A DNA stretch of 64,000 nt from Halobacteriales archaeon YIM A00010 (GTDB taxonomy: Archaea > Halobacteriota > Halobacteria > Halobacteriales > Haloarculaceae): the NCBI GenBank assembly GCA_025041175.1, contig JAKCFJ010000001.1, positions 2,435,526 to 2,499,525 on the forward strand, given 5' to 3'. Of the stretch, positions 25,199 through 32,642 are shown piece by piece. The notes beneath the pieces were generated by a model. That model made no database searches. It saw only the letters and a program-made list of their open reading frames with translations, and was not told where the DNA came from. A program made the position numbers and the translations under genes. Numbering within the stretch: the stretch's first letter is position 1; every line of letters starts with the position of its first letter.

Positions 25199-26434
25199 AT
25201 GGCCGAGAATCGGGACGAAAACGGGGATCGAGCCGGCGTCGAGCCGGGCGCGGTCGAGTACGAGCCAGTGGGTGTGAAGGATCTGCTTTCGGAGATGAAA
25301 GACACGGCGGAGCTGCTGATCGATCTGTCGTACTCGTCGGTGTTGTTCGGGAGCCAGTCGGTCGCTCGGGAGGTGTTGGCGCTCGAACGGCGGATGGACG
25401 TGCTCCAGTTGAAAGCGCGGATGAGCCTCCTTATGGCGGCTCGAAACCCCTCCGACGCCGAGGCGCTTGCGCCGGTGCTCGGCGTTGTGGCGGCAACAGA
25501 GAAGATCAGCGACGCCGCGGGGGACATCGCAAAGATCGTTACCGAGGAGATCGGGCTGCCCGACGCCGTTCGTGGGGCGCTGCCCGAAGCGCTCGAAACG
25601 CTGGTCAGCGTGGAACTCGCGGACGATTCGGCGCTCGTCGGGCAGACGCTGGGCGATCGCAACCTCGAAACGGACACCGGCGTGCGGGTCATCGCTCTGC
25701 GCCGCCAGGGCGAGTGGCTGTTGAACCCCGACCGGGAGACGATACCCGAAACGGGTGACGCGCTGTTGCTCCGCGGGCCCGAGGAGGGGATCGACGCGGT
25801 GTACACCGAGGCAACCGACGAGGAGTACCCCCGTCCCGACCCCCCCGAGACGGAGATCGAGGACGTCGAGCGCGCCGTCGACTCCATCGTGCTCATGAAG
25901 AACATGAGCGAGCTCGCGGTCGATCTGGCCTACGGGGCGGTGCTGTTTGACAACCAGGCGGTTGCCAAGGAAGTCCGAGAGCTCGAAATCGAGGTGGATG
26001 CGCTCCAATCCCGGTTCGAGGCGTGGACGCTCCGGGCAGGGGGTCGGGTCGAGGATCCCGTCAGCCTCCGGGGGCTGGTCCAACTCGCCCAATCCACGGA
26101 GGTCATCTCCGACGCAGCACTCGAAATCAGCGACGGTGTGCTGCGGGGGCTGGGCACCCACCCGGTGGTCGCCGCTGCCGTCGAGGAGAGCGTCGAGATC
26201 ATCATCCGCACGGAGATCGACCCCGACAGCGTGCTCGCGAACGCGACGCTCGGCCAGCAGAAGGTGAGCACGAAAACCGGGATGCGGGTGATCGCCGTCC
26301 GGCGCGGAACGGGCGAGGACGCCGACTGGATCGTCTCCCCCGGTCCCGACACCCGACTCAAAGCCGGCGACGTGATCATCGCCAAAGGAACGCGCGCCGG
26401 CTCCGAGCGGCTGACGGAGATGGCGGACGGCTGA
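25199..26434 (+). CDS. Tandem PhoU/TrkA-C protein (K+ transport regulator family)
   Basis: The 411-aa soluble protein contains two copies of the same unit: a PhoU-like helical domain (about 35-130 and 225-320) followed by a TrkA-C (RCK-C) domain (about 140-195 and 330-408). The repeats share phrases such as DLSYSSVLFGSQSVAREV and DLAYGAVLFDNQAVAKEV. RCK-C domains bind small ligands and gate cation channels; related archaeal proteins accompany potassium or other ion transporters. No transporter gene is adjacent here. The start at 25199 is chosen because upstream in-frame residues are hydrophobic and atypical. Confidence 0.8.
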   Translation: MAENRDENGDRAGVEPGAVEYEPVGVKDLLSEMKDTAELLIDLSYSSVLFGSQSVAREVLALERRMDVLQLKARMSLLMAARNPSDAEALAPVLGVVAATEKISDAAGDIAKIVTEEIGLPDAVRGALPEALETLVSVELADDSALVGQTLGDRNLETDTGVRVIALRRQGEWLLNPDRETIPETGDALLLRGPEEGIDAVYTEATDEEYPRPDPPETEIEDVERAVDSIVLMKNMSELAVDLAYGAVLFDNQAVAKEVRELEIEVDALQSRFEAWTLRAGGRVEDPVSLRGLVQLAQSTEVISDAALEISDGVLRGLGTHPVVAAAVEESVEIIIRTEIDPDSVLANATLGQQKVSTKTGMRVIAVRRGTGEDADWIVSPGPDTRLKAGDVIIAKGTRAGSERLTEMADG

Positions 26435-26501
26435 TGGGGACTGTTGTAATTCCATACCGCTGTGGCGAAACAGAACGGTTCGTGAAACCCTAGAGCAGTC
26501 G

Positions 26502-26833: not shown

Positions 26834-27583
26834 CTACTCCCTTCGATCGATGACGCCGCGTTCGTGGGCTGCTCTCGGGAGACCGATGGTAAGTGTGTGG
26901 TAGCTGTCGTCGAGATCGACCGTGACACGGAGATCGTCGAACCCGCCGATAACGGCGATGTCGGACAGGAGATCGGCGAGCGAATGGGTGACAGCAGTTG
27001 TCGTGTCCGGACTGAGATAGGGGGTCGTGGCGCTCGTGATGTCCTCGATCAGCCCCGGATCGTTCGCCGCTTTCGGATCGATCTCTGCGGTGATCTCGGC
27101 GTCCTCGTAGGTTACGTCAAATCGGATGCCTTCACCGTATTCACGTGGTTCGACAGTGATCGAACCCTGCTCGGTCGTGACAGTGACTGGCTCGGACACG
27201 GTCGTCCGGGTCTCGTCCGCCGTCCCGACGATGTCGGCATCCGCGAGGGCTGTGGAGAGATCCGGATTCGGCAGACCAGCAGGATGTCCAACCACGCTCG
27301 ACGGTGGGAGACCGGCCGCGTAGCAGAATCGGTGCTCGGGGCGATCGAACGACCACTCCGAGACGCGACCGGTTACGGCGGCGGCTTCGATCCCGTGGAG
27401 GCCGAGGACGCCGAGGACGTGTTCGGTGATGAACGCTCGCTGTCGATCCGTGGCGAGATCGACGCGTACGTCGGCCTTTCGGGCGTGGTCGAGGTCGGCG
27501 GGAATCCCGTTGATCGTGATTCCGTCCGTCGCTGGCTTGACGGTGACTTCGGAGCCGACGATCGGTTCGGCGACGGTCCTCAT
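26834..27583 (-). CDS. LpxC-like zinc-dependent deacetylase
   Basis: The 249-aa protein is unlike any family common in haloarchaea, but follows the LpxC pattern. Residues 51-68 (FITEHVLGVLGLHGIEAA) match the TVEHLLAALxGLGIDN motif, giving catalytic E54 and zinc ligand H55. Residues 199-212 (THSLADLLSDIAVI) match HKxLDxxGDLxL, giving H200, D204 and the conserved D208. H229 in DDSYHT matches the SGH histidine. In E. coli LpxC the equivalents are E78, H79, H238, D242, D246 and H265, with similar spacing. LpxC removes acetyl from UDP-3-O-acyl-GlcNAc in lipid A synthesis; archaea make no lipid A, so the substrate here must differ, perhaps another acetylated sugar nucleotide. It starts ATGA-coupled to the upstream M20-like gene. 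The family call rests on motif matching only. Confidence 0.6.
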   Translation of the reverse strand: MRTVAEPIVGSEVTVKPATDGITINGIPADLDHARKADVRVDLATDRQRAFITEHVLGVLGLHGIEAAAVTGRVSEWSFDRPEHRFCYAAGLPPSSVVGHPAGLPNPDLSTALADADIVGTADETRTTVSEPVTVTTEQGSITVEPREYGEGIRFDVTYEDAEITAEIDPKAANDPGLIEDITSATTPYLSPDTTTAVTHSLADLLSDIAVIGGFDDLRVTVDLDDSYHTLTIGLPRAAHERGVIDRRE

Positions 27584-28443
27584 CGAATCCCCCCGAGCGT
27601 CTCGACGATGGCTGTCAGAACCTCCACATCCCGCTCGAACGTCGTTTCATCGTAGGGTGTACCGGTCGTCGCCATACCGAACGCGAACCGCGTTTCGTTT
27701 GCGAGGCTGGAGAACGTCCCCGGACCTGGGAGCCACTCGTACTGAGCGTCACCGAGCACACGACAAACGGCATCCTCGACCTGCGCCCGACACTCCTCGG
27801 TCGGTTCGGCAACCGACACGTCATCTGTGGGTTCGTAGTCGACGGCCGTGACCGCGTCGATGTCCTCGAACGTCGCTTCGACGCGGTCGGTGGTCGTCGC
27901 AGGCGTTATGGACACATCGAACGTGATATCGACGCCCAGTGCCGTCTCAGTCGCGCCGTTGAAATCGAACGTCGTCATACCGTTCGTGAAGACACCGGCG
28001 TCGTCCTCGGCAACCGGGTAGACGTCGTGGCTCGGCTGTGCGGCGGTCAATACCGCGTCGACGGCGTCTCGAACGTCACCGAGACGGGTGTGGACGTTCT
28101 CGTCCGACACCCCAACGCTGACGGTTGCGTGCCCGCTCCCTGTCGCCACGGTCGAGAGGTGGCCGGCGAGGGGTGCGACGACGAGCCACGGGCCGGTCGC
28201 TTCCGCTGTTGGATCCGAATACTGGAGGCGTGCGTTCTGGGATCCGGCGGCAACGGTGGTTGCAGCGGCTAAACAACCGGCTGCGGCCGCGTCTGCTCCG
28301 TGGTACGTCCTGTCCTTCACCGTGGCGTTTACGACAGCAACGGACGGCTCGACCACCAGATTCACGGGCTGATCGGAAGCCGTGCCAGCGGTATCCCGTG
28401 CCGTGTCCCCGAGTTCGTCCACGGGTGGAAGCGTTAATGACAT
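27580..28443 (-). CDS. Degenerate M20-like (ArgE/DapE-fold) protein
   Basis: The 287-aa protein shows traces of the M20 deacylase fold: a YHGADAAAAGCLAAATTVA helix block, a lid-domain pattern (WLVVAPLAGHLSTVATGSGH, then ATVSVGV, ENVHTRLGDVRDAVDAVL), a strand block VDITFDVSITPATTTDRVEA, and a C-terminal LPGPGTFSSLANETRFAFG. The N-terminal metal-binding region (GHxDxVP-type) is missing and later ligands are not evident, so it is probably not an active zinc hydrolase. It is the first gene of a two-gene operon with the LpxC-like gene (ATGA overlap). A substrate-binding or scaffold role is possible. The fold call is tentative. Confidence 0.45.
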   Translation of the reverse strand: MSLTLPPVDELGDTARDTAGTASDQPVNLVVEPSVAVVNATVKDRTYHGADAAAAGCLAAATTVAAGSQNARLQYSDPTAEATGPWLVVAPLAGHLSTVATGSGHATVSVGVSDENVHTRLGDVRDAVDAVLTAAQPSHDVYPVAEDDAGVFTNGMTTFDFNGATETALGVDITFDVSITPATTTDRVEATFEDIDAVTAVDYEPTDDVSVAEPTEECRAQVEDAVCRVLGDAQYEWLPGPGTFSSLANETRFAFGMATTGTPYDETTFERDVEVLTAIVETLGGIR

Positions 28444-28600: not shown

Positions 28601-28690
28601 GGTCCCGGCACCCGGCTCAAAGCCGGCGGCGTGGTCGTCGCCAAAGCACGCGCCGGCTCCGAGCGGCTGTCCGAGACGGCGACGGGATGA
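28601..28690 (+). pseudogene. Decayed TrkA-C tail (duplicate of 26347-26434)
   Basis: The 30-codon stretch reads GPGTRLKAGGVVVAKARAGS then ERLSETATG and stop. It closely matches the last 30 residues of the PhoU/TrkA-C protein (GPDTRLKAGDVIIAKGTRAG...). No gene body precedes it. It marks either a lost second paralogue or a duplicated junction around the LpxC-like operon. Confidence 0.7.
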
Positions 28691-28774
28691 TGCCTCGATT
28701 CGAGACGCGTTTCACTTTACCCGCTCCTTCCGTCGACCGAAGCGCTTACACTATCGTCGCTGACACCAGTACAG

Positions 28775-30166
28775 GTGAGTCTTCGCGTCATTCACTACGC
28801 CGACATCGAGGCGACGTACGACGATCCCGAGCGGATCGCCCGCCTCGCCGGCGCTGTCGCCTCGCTCCGGGATGAGAACACCCTCCTCGTTGGAGCGGGT
28901 GATAACGTCGCTCCCGGCGCGCTCGCGCTCTGTACCGACGGCGAGCAGGCACTCACCTTTTTCGACGCGATCGAGCCGGCCGTCGATACGCTCGGCAACC
29001 ACGATTTCGACTACGGACGAGACGCGTTGTTGTCGGTGGTTCGTCAGTCGCCACAAACGTGGGTCTGTGCGAACGCGGACGCTGGAGCGGAGCGTTTCGG
29101 ACAGGACGCCGGGATCGTCCCGTGGACGGTGATCGAACGGGACGGCCACCGCGTCGGGCTGTTCGGACTGGCCCATCCACTGACGGACGAAAAATCCCCC
29201 GCGGCACAGGAACTGACGTTCACGGATCCGATCGCGGCTGCGACCGACGCTGTCGAGGCGCTTCGTGGAGAGTCCGTCGATCACGTCCTCTGTGTCTCCC
29301 ACCTCGGCGAGGCGGAAGGACACGGGCAGGGCGAGGTCGAGGATCTCGCGGCGGCCGTCGACATCGATGTCATCTGTGACGGACACACGCACGATCAGCC
29401 CCGCATCGACCGCGTCGCGGGCACGCTGGTGGTGCGAACCTCGGGCGAAGGGGTCGATCTCACCGAGCTACAGTACGACGGGGAGTGGACGGCCCGACGC
29501 CGCTCCGTCGCAGACGCGCAGCCAGAGCCAGCCGTCGAGCGCACCTTTCGGGAACTGCGAACCACCGCTGGATTGGACGAGGTCGTTGCGACGGTTTCGG
29601 AACCGATCGATCGCTCGACATCGGCACGGTTTCGCGGCGAGTCGCGGCTCGGAAACTTCGTGACCGACGCTTACCGGTGGGTGACCGACGCCGAGATCGG
29701 ACTCCAGCACAGTGCGGGAATGCGAGGGGGAACGGAGCTGTGCGGAGCGGTCACTGTCGCGGACCTCGTGAGCGTCGTGCCGTTCGATATGGACGTGGTA
29801 CGGACATCTGTTACAGGAAAAAAGATCCTCGAGATGCTCGCCGCCGGCGGAGAGATCGTCTATCCAGCACAGCCGGCGTTCTGGCACGTCCATCTGAGCG
29901 GGGGTTCGATCGTGTACGATTACGCCGAGAGGGAGGTAGAGACAGCGGCCGTCGACGGACAGCCGATCGATCCCTCCGCGTCCTACCGCGTCGCAGCCCC
30001 CGAAAATCTCTTGCGCTCGTTCGACATCGATCTGTCACACGACACCGGATCGTTCGGGCTACAGTACGAACTGCTCGCGGAGTACGCGCGGACACAGGGT
30101 ATTTCGCCGGCGCTCGACGGCCGGATCACGCGCAGGGGTGTCGAGTCGGGGAGCGACTCAGAATGA
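28775..30166 (+). CDS. 5'-nucleotidase / UDP-sugar hydrolase family metallophosphoesterase
   Basis: The 463-aa protein has the calcineurin-like phosphoesterase blocks: VIHYADIEATYDDPER at the N-terminus (the usual DxH motif varies here to DIE), GAGDNVAPGALAL, LGNHDFDYG, VCVSHLGEAEGHG and CDGHTHDQPRID. A second domain of the 5'-nucleotidase C-terminal type follows (FRGESRLGNFVTDAYRWVTD, GLQHSAGMRGG, VPFDMDVVRTSVTGKKILEML). There is no signal peptide, unlike bacterial periplasmic relatives, so it acts in the cytoplasm on nucleotides or cyclic nucleotides. The GTG start is set by the conserved N-terminus. Confidence 0.85.
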   Translation: MSLRVIHYADIEATYDDPERIARLAGAVASLRDENTLLVGAGDNVAPGALALCTDGEQALTFFDAIEPAVDTLGNHDFDYGRDALLSVVRQSPQTWVCANADAGAERFGQDAGIVPWTVIERDGHRVGLFGLAHPLTDEKSPAAQELTFTDPIAAATDAVEALRGESVDHVLCVSHLGEAEGHGQGEVEDLAAAVDIDVICDGHTHDQPRIDRVAGTLVVRTSGEGVDLTELQYDGEWTARRRSVADAQPEPAVERTFRELRTTAGLDEVVATVSEPIDRSTSARFRGESRLGNFVTDAYRWVTDAEIGLQHSAGMRGGTELCGAVTVADLVSVVPFDMDVVRTSVTGKKILEMLAAGGEIVYPAQPAFWHVHLSGGSIVYDYAEREVETAAVDGQPIDPSASYRVAAPENLLRSFDIDLSHDTGSFGLQYELLAEYARTQGISPALDGRITRRGVESGSDSE

Positions 30167-30466: not shown

Positions 30467-30607
30467 AGCCGTAGATTGAGCGAGAGAGCACAAAGCGCCT
30501 TCGCAACAGGATGCCAGGAATGGATCAGATTCGATTCCGCCGACGGGGGGCGAAAATCGCCTCCGAAACCGAACGGTCTAAGAGGGTGGATTTACCGAAT
30601 ATACATA

Positions 30608-31564
30608 ATGACGACGCTCGGCACCGCGACCGCGTGTCCCGGCGAGATCGCAACGGGACGGCTGTCCGTCGGAGAGGCCCGTGACGGCAGCGACATCGGT
30701 CTCCCGGTTGCGGTGATCAACGGTACGGATGACGGCAAAACGCTGTACGTTCAGGCGGTGAGCGACGGTGACGAACTCAACGGTCTCGGTGTCGTCCGGC
30801 GGCTCGTGCCCCAGCTCGATCCGGAAGAGATCTCCGGTCGGATTCTCGTCGTGGGGATCGTCAACTACCACGGCTTTCACGCCGCCGAACACCGCAACCC
30901 GATCGACGACACGAAAACGAACCGGACGTATCCGGGCGATCCGAACGGGATGTCGACCGAGCGCATCGCTCACGCCACCTTCGACGCCGTGACGCGGGCC
31001 GATTTCGCGCTCGATCTCCACCAAGGCTCGACGAGCCGGATGATCGATGAGACCCGGGTCAGGTGTGGTTCGCGCCACCGGCTTCACTCGGCGTGTCTCG
31101 AACTCGCCAAGGTGTTCGACTGTGGTCACATCCTCGACCAGAAAGGTCCGGACGGACAGCTCGCGCGGACGGCTCCCGACGAGGGCGTTCCCACGATCGA
31201 TCCCGAACTCGGTGGCTCGGTCGGCTGGGATCACGAAAGCATCGAGCGCGGCCTTCGAGGGGTGTATCGGGTGCTCAAATACTACGGCTTTCTGGACGGC
31301 TCGGTCGACATCAATCCCCAGACGCGCGCGAACGGGTTCGAGCAGTACGCCTCGCCCGTCGGGGGGTTGGTGACGTTCCAAACCGATCTCGGAGATCGCG
31401 TCGAGAGCGGTGATCCCCTGTTCGACGTGACCGATCCGTTCGGTCGCGTCAAATCCACCGTGACCGCCGACTCGACTGGTGTGTTCTGGCGCACGCGCCG
31501 CCTGCCACAAGTCGCAACGGGAGAGTACGTCTGTTCTATCGGCACTAATCTCGATGAGTACTGA
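30608..31564 (+). CDS. Succinylglutamate desuccinylase/aspartoacylase-family hydrolase
   Basis: The 318-aa protein resembles the AstE/AspA metallohydrolases of the M14 fold: VVGIVNYHGFHAAEHRNPID near residue 80-100, NRTYPGDPNG, FALDLHQGSTSRM and a C-terminal beta domain (ASPVGGLVTFQTDLGDRV...VTADSTGVFWRTRRL) that resembles a biotinyl/lipoyl-like module. Such enzymes cleave N-acyl amino acids or unblock polyamine-like compounds. The start at 30608 begins after the TATA-like TTTACC...TATACAT. The next gene starts inside its last codons (31554), so the two are co-translated. Confidence 0.8.
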   Translation: MTTLGTATACPGEIATGRLSVGEARDGSDIGLPVAVINGTDDGKTLYVQAVSDGDELNGLGVVRRLVPQLDPEEISGRILVVGIVNYHGFHAAEHRNPIDDTKTNRTYPGDPNGMSTERIAHATFDAVTRADFALDLHQGSTSRMIDETRVRCGSRHRLHSACLELAKVFDCGHILDQKGPDGQLARTAPDEGVPTIDPELGGSVGWDHESIERGLRGVYRVLKYYGFLDGSVDINPQTRANGFEQYASPVGGLVTFQTDLGDRVESGDPLFDVTDPFGRVKSTVTADSTGVFWRTRRLPQVATGEYVCSIGTNLDEY

Positions 31565-32642
31565 AACGACCCTTCGGTGTTCGTCCTGTGGACGCACGTA
31601 CGTCGATCGCTGGCGGTGTGAGTGTGGACAGCCTCTCGATATCGACGCCTCGGAAACCGAGGCGGACGGGATCGATCCCGAAGTCGATCTCGGTGCCGGC
31701 CTGTGGGCGTTCGATGCGCTTCTCCCGGTCGATCCGGCGGTGCGTCTCGGAGCGGGAGCCACGCCGCTGGTGGACGCGCCCGACCCGTGGAACTGTGCGT
31801 TCGAGCTCGAATACGTTTCACCCACGGGGAGTTTCAAGGACCGGGGCGCGTCGACGCTGCTCGCGCGCGCGGACCAGCTGGGTGTCGAGCACGTGCTCGA
31901 GGACTCTTCGGGGAACGCGGGTGCAGCGGTCGCAACCTACGCAGCCCGCGCTGGGGTGGACTGTACCGTGTACGTCCCGGCGAGCGCGCCCGACCCGAAG
32001 GTGCGCGCCATCGACCGCACCGGCGCGTCGATCGTTCGCGTCGAGGGGTCGCGCCAAGACGTGACCGATGCGTGCGTCGAGGCCGTCGAACGGGGGGAAG
32101 GCTGGTACGCGAGCCACGCGTGGAACCCGTTCTTTTTCGAGGGGACTGCGACCGTGGCCTACGAGATCGCTGCCCAACGCGGCTGGTCGGTGCCCGATGC
32201 ACTCGTTATGCCACTGGGTCACGGCACGCTGTTTCTGGGCGCGTACCGGGGCTTTCGACGGCTGTGCAACGTTGGACTGATCGAGGAGCCACCGCGGCTG
32301 CTCGGCGTGCAGGCCGCCGGCTACGATCCCATCGCGCGCGAACTGCGGGACGGCGGCGCTACGGACGGCGACCCGAACGACGCCGCGGACGGCATCCACA
32401 TCCGTGAGCCGGTCAGAAAGGAGCAGATCATCGACGCGATCGACGCGACCGGTGGCGACTGCATCACACTCGGTTCGGAGGCTGTCGAAACCGAACTCGA
32501 CGCGCTCCACCGCCGCGGCTTCTACGTCGAGCCGACTAGCGCCGTTGCACCCGCCGCCCTCCACCGGTACCGCGAGCGCGGCGTGCTCGATCCCGAGGAT
32601 TCGGTGGTCGTGCCCCTGACCGGCAGCGGGTTGAAAAAGTGA
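31554..32642 (+). CDS. Threonine-synthase-like PLP enzyme with zinc-ribbon N-terminus
   Basis: The 362-aa protein begins with a zinc ribbon (RCSSCGRTYVDRWRCECGQP) and continues as a fold-type II PLP enzyme: the PTGSFKDRGAS lysine block, EDSSGNAGAAVATYAARAG phosphate loop, VMPLGHGTLFLGAY glycine loop and VVPLTGSGLKK end. These are typical of archaeal threonine synthase, which makes threonine from O-phosphohomoserine. Related cystathionine-synthase-like enzymes cannot be excluded. It overlaps the upstream gene by 11 nt. Confidence 0.8.
   Translation: MSTETTLRCSSCGRTYVDRWRCECGQPLDIDASETEADGIDPEVDLGAGLWAFDALLPVDPAVRLGAGATPLVDAPDPWNCAFELEYVSPTGSFKDRGASTLLARADQLGVEHVLEDSSGNAGAAVATYAARAGVDCTVYVPASAPDPKVRAIDRTGASIVRVEGSRQDVTDACVEAVERGEGWYASHAWNPFFFEGTATVAYEIAAQRGWSVPDALVMPLGHGTLFLGAYRGFRRLCNVGLIEEPPRLLGVQAAGYDPIARELRDGGATDGDPNDAADGIHIREPVRKEQIIDAIDATGGDCITLGSEAVETELDALHRRGFYVEPTSAVAPAALHRYRERGVLDPEDSVVVPLTGSGLKK

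Follow-up and report, generated by a model that had tools for sequence, protein, structure and literature searches.

LpxC, the UDP-3-O-acyl-N-acetylglucosamine deacetylase, is the zinc enzyme that starts lipid A synthesis in bacteria and a much-studied antibiotic target; to our knowledge, enzymes of its fold are known essentially from this pathway, and the relatives that have been characterised are UDP-sugar deacetylases. What, then, is a protein with the catalytic residues of LpxC doing in an archaeon? The question is raised by a gene of Halobacteriales archaeon YIM A00010, found in a stretch of 64,000 nucleotides that is called the window here. The initial annotation had read its product as an LpxC-type zinc deacetylase acting on an acetylated sugar nucleotide or a glycolipid. 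Our analysis retains one half of this proposal, the relationship to LpxC-type zinc hydrolases, and finds no support for the other, the sugar-nucleotide or glycolipid substrate.

A coupled gene pair in an apparently inserted segment

The gene, which we call LPXC-like, and the features around it are the following.

25199..26434, plus strand: PhoU/TrkA_C-domain gene, a flanking gene outside the system, its 3' end duplicated beyond the insert
26834..27583, minus strand: LPXC-like, candidate zinc hydrolase of the LpxC fold, 249 aa, ATG start; predicted zinc ligands H55, H200 and D204, predicted general base E54, predicted catalytic or oxyanion residues D208, H229 and T187
27580..28443, minus strand: NBR, the partner gene, about 287 aa, with no match to any Pfam, PHROGs or NCBIfam family
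28601..28692, plus strand: diverged copy, at 84-89%, of positions 26342-26436 (3' end of the PhoU/TrkA_C gene)
28775..30166, plus strand: 5'-nucleotidase-type gene, a flanking gene outside the system

The first reading had overlooked NBR, the translationally coupled partner gene that lies directly upstream of LPXC-like on the same strand; the NBR stop and the LPXC-like start overlap by 4 bp (ATGA). An overlapping ATGA or GTGA start was found in all ten copies of LPXC-like, and NBR is present upstream of nine of them, the tenth copy being at a contig edge.

At the syntenic position, the congeners used for comparison lack the pair. In four of these five, the PhoU/TrkA_C and 5'-nucleotidase genes adjoin each other without it, the spacer between them measuring 0.7-1.1 kb as against 2.35 kb here, and no trace of LPXC-like or NBR was found in these four spacers. 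The last ~95 bp of the PhoU/TrkA_C gene recur as a direct repeat in a diverged copy past the pair, and this duplicate marks the right edge of the inserted segment; a related donor could have supplied the repeat, or integration at the 3' terminus of the PhoU/TrkA_C gene could have produced it. Third-position GC is 0.73-0.74 in the pair, 0.84-0.85 in nadB and the PhoU/TrkA_C gene, and 0.76 in the 5'-nucleotidase gene. Given the pair-free spacers, the diverged 3'-end copy and the third-position GC, the earlier impression of an inserted segment is reasonable. Further along the window (30476-32642), a gene of the succinylglutamate desuccinylase/aspartoacylase family is followed by a PALP-family (threonine synthase-like) gene, and four of the five congeners show the same synteny.

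A distant relative of LpxC in haloarchaea

Among 391 sampled genomes of the class, the LPXC-like family accounts for nine copies in eight genomes. A separate scan of named genomes identified it in Halorussus halobius, Halobacterium bonnevillei and Halorussus litoreus, the last two of which are also in the 391-genome sample. Ten distinct haloarchaeal sequences align readily, with 51-60% identity to the window protein and 43-91% among themselves, and dN/dS values of ~0.25-0.32 in four pairs of homologues indicate purifying selection in the relatives. Matches to the Pfam LpxC family (PF03331) in other haloarchaea and weak matches to the A1 profile (E ~1e-4) were short and partial; they fell within other reading frames, most of them longer, and were left out of the count. 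No relatives of LPXC-like were found in viral contigs, and the plasmid search gave a single match, sub-threshold and unrelated.

The relationship to LpxC becomes visible at the level of profiles. Searches of PDB and NCBIfam with the window protein alone gave nothing useful, PHROGs gave no match, and the family is not represented by a model in NCBIfam; against PF03331, the window protein scored 14.5 bits, under the gathering threshold of 27 bits. PF03331 was the only family to match more than one member (six of ten, best E 0.0012, all below the cut-off), and it had no match above the cut-off in any of 292 haloarchaeal genomes. The family profile ranked Aquifex aeolicus LpxC first among PDB sequences (E ~1), in an alignment that matched up the EH and HxxxDxxxD segments. 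When the family was compared by hhalign with a reference alignment of 11 LpxCs from Aquificota, Proteobacteria, Fusobacteria and Bacteroidota, the alignment was colinear over both domains and gave P 4e-4 in either direction, with every catalytic residue in register; unrelated families from the same loci gave P values of 0.03-0.94. None of 400 column shuffles of the family (mean 14.8, sd 2.4, maximum 24.3) reached the observed score of 34.4.

In the joint alignment, E78, H79, T191, H238, D242, D246 and H265 of E. coli LpxC, of which H79, H238 and D242 are the zinc ligands, correspond to E54, H55, T187, H200, D204, D208 and H229 of the window protein. This set is invariant in both families, save that T191 is Ser in two LpxCs. 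The residues that the initial annotation had listed (E54-H55, H200, D204, D208 and H229) are thus at the positions given and kept in all ten homologues, T187 likewise, and the spacings also hold, at 145 residues from H55 to H200 and 25 from D204 to H229, compared with 159 and 23 in E. coli LpxC. Since these residues are invariant in ten homologues and all in register with 11 LpxCs, with a score above those of the shuffles, the pattern and its spacings are not a product of chance.

Structural modelling points weakly in the same direction. Two AlphaFold2 models were built from four sequences only and reached low mean pLDDT values of 37.5 and 35.6, so the fold is not established structurally. When the first, template-free model was aligned to PDB chains with VIA-align, the 20 best matches were all LpxC structures (Z 6.7-7.7), with other S5-domain-2-like folds ranking next, and the LpxC match spanned ~105 residues within 124-249 of the model. 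Foldseek placed LpxC among its top matches at E-values that were not significant, with an unrelated kinase ranking higher. The structural re-alignment therefore supports an LpxC-type domain II in a protein whose fold is unproven. Could the protein have a different fold altogether and share the residue pattern with LpxC by coincidence? The sub-threshold single-sequence searches and the poor models would fit this reading, which we nevertheless regard as the least credible of those considered here, in view of the colinear profile alignment far beyond the shuffles, the consistent weak Pfam matches and the structural list topped by LpxC. Profile homology, catalytic residues conserved in ten homologues and the weak fold evidence agree with one another, and LPXC-like is thus supported as a genuine distant relative of LpxC.

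Loss of the UDP- and acyl-binding parts

LPXC-like resembles LpxC in its catalytic residues, in profile homology over both domains and in a weak fold match of domain II, and differs from it in the parts that would hold the substrate. The N-terminal segment of LpxC with H19 and the GxGxHTG motif has no counterpart; the column of C63 is Arg and that of the DGS motif is replaced; the column of K239, which is K or R in the 11 LpxCs, is Ser, Ala or Trp in the haloarchaeal family; and the domain II insert from RTFGF to GGS is deleted, the Thr of RTF alone being left. K239 in LpxC is part of the UDP-phosphate pocket, and its role and that of the hydrophobic tunnel have been described (PMC10254716), while the acyl channel is made up of the insert of domain II together with that of domain I (PMC11877204). 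The haloarchaeal proteins further differ from LpxC in scoring under the Pfam cut-off, in their archaeal host, in their pairing with NBR and in their place in a catabolic operon (see below). On these grounds, LPXC-like is not LpxC itself and forms a separate branch of the same superfamily.

These losses bear directly on the substrate proposed in the initial annotation. A role in the synthesis of the archaeal envelope, with removal of the acetyl group from a sugar nucleotide or glycolipid, would be in keeping with the UDP-sugar deacetylase activity of characterised LpxC relatives and with a PMT-type mannosyltransferase gene beyond the operon in Halorussus halobius. This mannosyltransferase was seen at one locus only, and the operon is catabolic; no sugar or glycolipid genes were found in the operons of the relatives, K239, H19, the DGS motif and the acyl-channel insert that would bind a UDP-sugar and its acyl chain are gone, and no match to LpxB or LpxD was found in the window's genome, while control genomes were positive. 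We therefore consider such an activity quite improbable.

The loss of much of the LpxC substrate site could also be taken as a sign that the protein is not an enzyme at all, being a pseudoenzyme of the LpxC fold or a scaffold or regulator of a complex with M20A, the amidohydrolase of the operon. This seems to us still less probable, as all ten sequences share the predicted zinc ligands and acid/base residues without exception although their identity to one another is only 43-91%, and as two copies outside the operon also keep their catalytic residues.

A catabolic operon, probably for amides

NBR and LPXC-like close the operon in six sampled genomes and in Halorussus halobius, where they follow M20A, which encodes an ArgE/DapE-type M20 amidohydrolase (closest model PRK13013). 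M20A is preceded by a short-chain dehydrogenase/reductase (SDR) gene and, in most cases, also by an aldehyde dehydrogenase gene. Nearby in most loci are genes for an Lrp-type regulator, a class III aminotransferase, a CoA-acylating dehydrogenase of the methylmalonate-semialdehyde type (MMSDH) and an oligopeptide-type ABC transporter. In Halobacterium bonnevillei, LPXC-like is at a contig edge, and M20A sits next to these ABC transporter genes where a different contig ends. A second NBR and LPXC-like pair, solitary and with intact catalytic residues, occurs in the genome G191 (locus L024 on contig 3, 7998-9559), which also has the operon copy.

The operon recalls beta-alanine-type degradation, in that the class III aminotransferase and the CoA-acylating methylmalonate/malonate-semialdehyde dehydrogenase are kept in most operons, in both of the versions described below; it differs from it in that the haloarchaeal operons put amide hydrolases, an SDR and a second aldehyde dehydrogenase ahead of these steps.

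The pair and a second M20 amidohydrolase

A high-stringency search found M20A in 19 of the 391 genomes, including all eight with LPXC-like, a co-occurrence with a hypergeometric p of 6e-12 in which shared ancestry is ignored. In all 11 M20A genomes without the pair, a second M20 amidohydrolase, M20B, was present at 71-100% identity to the query. M20B adjoins M20A in the ten loci examined, most of which also have a sodium:solute symporter gene and about half a third M20-type hydrolase. Conversely, a close M20B is missing from seven of the eight LPXC-like genomes, among them G191, which has a 59% M20B paralogue elsewhere; the exception is the window's own genome (G000). The exclusion, for which Fisher's test gave p 1.6e-4 with shared ancestry again ignored, is thus not strict. 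LPXC-like and NBR appear to fill the pathway slot that corresponds to M20B, likely with the same chemistry, zinc-dependent amide hydrolysis.

Neither protein of the pair resembles these M20-type hydrolases in sequence. Neither has a Pfam M20 match, and hhalign comparisons of LPXC-like or NBR with M20A, M20B and the third M20-type hydrolase gave probabilities of 0-1.6% (P 0.03-0.94). The C-terminus of NBR had suggested a degenerate M20 enzyme, which hhalign rules out; that NBR is a paralogue of LPXC-like was rejected by profile comparison, and it matched no LpxC profile either.

The exchange of hydrolases goes together with one of transporters. The gene for the oligopeptide-binding protein SBP5 is present in six of the eight LPXC-like genomes and in none of the 11 others, and this coincidence may mean that the substrates of the two versions differ and that there is no true replacement. 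It is accordingly possible, though on balance unlikely, that the pair works in the same pathway without substituting for M20B, on another starting compound brought in by the oligopeptide ABC transporter, possibly peptide-like or N-acylated, and that it may even cut a bond other than an amide. The co-variation of the pair with the SBP5 transporter, against that of M20B mostly with the sodium:solute symporter, speaks for this, as does the presence of both the pair and an M20B-type cluster in the window's genome; against it, two of the eight carriers (G088 and G000) have no close SBP5, and the chemistry of the M20B hydrolase is of the same general kind as that of the LpxC fold.

In the window the pair is solitary, and the M20B-type cluster of the same genome is on contig 3 (441000-460000), where it is complete, with MMSDH, aminotransferase, Lrp, M20B, symporter, Zn-hydrolase, M20A and SDR genes. 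With a solitary pair and a complete cluster on another contig, the pair may be redundant in this species, or serve an additional substrate. A plasmid of Halocatena marina (L032, 9278-13077) carries an M20A cluster without LPXC-like that has, at the same site, genes for a hydantoinase/carbamoylase-type M20 hydrolase, a C45 acyltransferase/hydrolase and a symporter-like protein; it is a further rearrangement of amide-hydrolase genes.

A model for LPXC-like and NBR

We consider it moderately likely that LPXC-like and NBR form a zinc amidohydrolase of amide catabolism that stands in the place of M20B. LPXC-like would be a trimmed-down LpxC relative in which the catalytic zinc site is retained, whereas the lysine that binds UDP and the channel for the acyl chain are gone. 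By analogy with the chemistry of LpxC, H55, H200 and D204 would bind the zinc ion and E54 would activate water, with D208, H229 and T187 assisting, and the co-translated NBR would act jointly with LPXC-like. From the gene context, the pair is predicted to cleave the amide bond of a small compound, imported in most carriers by the oligopeptide-type ABC transporter, whose products would enter a pathway of SDR, aldehyde dehydrogenase, M20 deacylase, class III aminotransferase and CoA-acylating semialdehyde dehydrogenase. The pair would thereby take the place of the second M20 amidohydrolase of other haloarchaea.

The aminotransferase and MMSDH point to an intermediate of the omega-amino acid type, beta-alanine for instance, and the SDR and second aldehyde dehydrogenase to an alcohol part. 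Our best guess, weakly held, is that the substrate is an amide of an omega-amino acid, for example of beta-alanine. Pantothenate-like compounds would fit, and pantothenate catabolism was considered in view of the SDR, the aldehyde dehydrogenase, the class III aminotransferase, MMSDH and a match to a PanF-like symporter. The literature searched has nothing on this pathway in haloarchaea and no direct evidence of it was found, and we think these substrates improbable. Stated in full, and only tentatively, our proposal is that LPXC-like and NBR make up a new family of zinc amidohydrolases with two subunits. This catabolic branch of the LpxC fold, confined so far to a patchy set of haloarchaea, would have displaced an M20 amidohydrolase in a pathway for an omega-amino acid amide, which may resemble pantothenate or pantetheine.

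Implications for the LpxC fold

Archaea probably put the LpxC fold to a second, catabolic use. We found no mention of an archaeal or non-lipid-A relative of LpxC in the literature searched, nor a description of the pathway encoded by the LPXC-like operon, and we regard the system as a known catalytic fold whose substrate site is trimmed and which occurs with a new partner and in a new pathway. If this is true, an archaeal lineage that has the zinc site without the UDP- and acyl-binding parts would mean that the LpxC fold supports a general amide-hydrolysing chemistry, and LPXC-like would provide a minimal version of the enzyme for studies of mechanism and inhibitor selectivity. The operon would in turn point to an apparently undescribed catabolic pathway of haloarchaea that exists in two interchangeable versions.

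Divergent paralogues of LpxC were also seen on plasmid pII of Paraburkholderia dioscoreae (L054) and plasmid p2 of Caballeronia insecticola (L053), with HR replacing HK after the zinc histidine. The Paraburkholderia paralogue lies directly 3' of a gene for a type I polyketide synthase, a position that hints at a further role of the fold outside lipid A synthesis.
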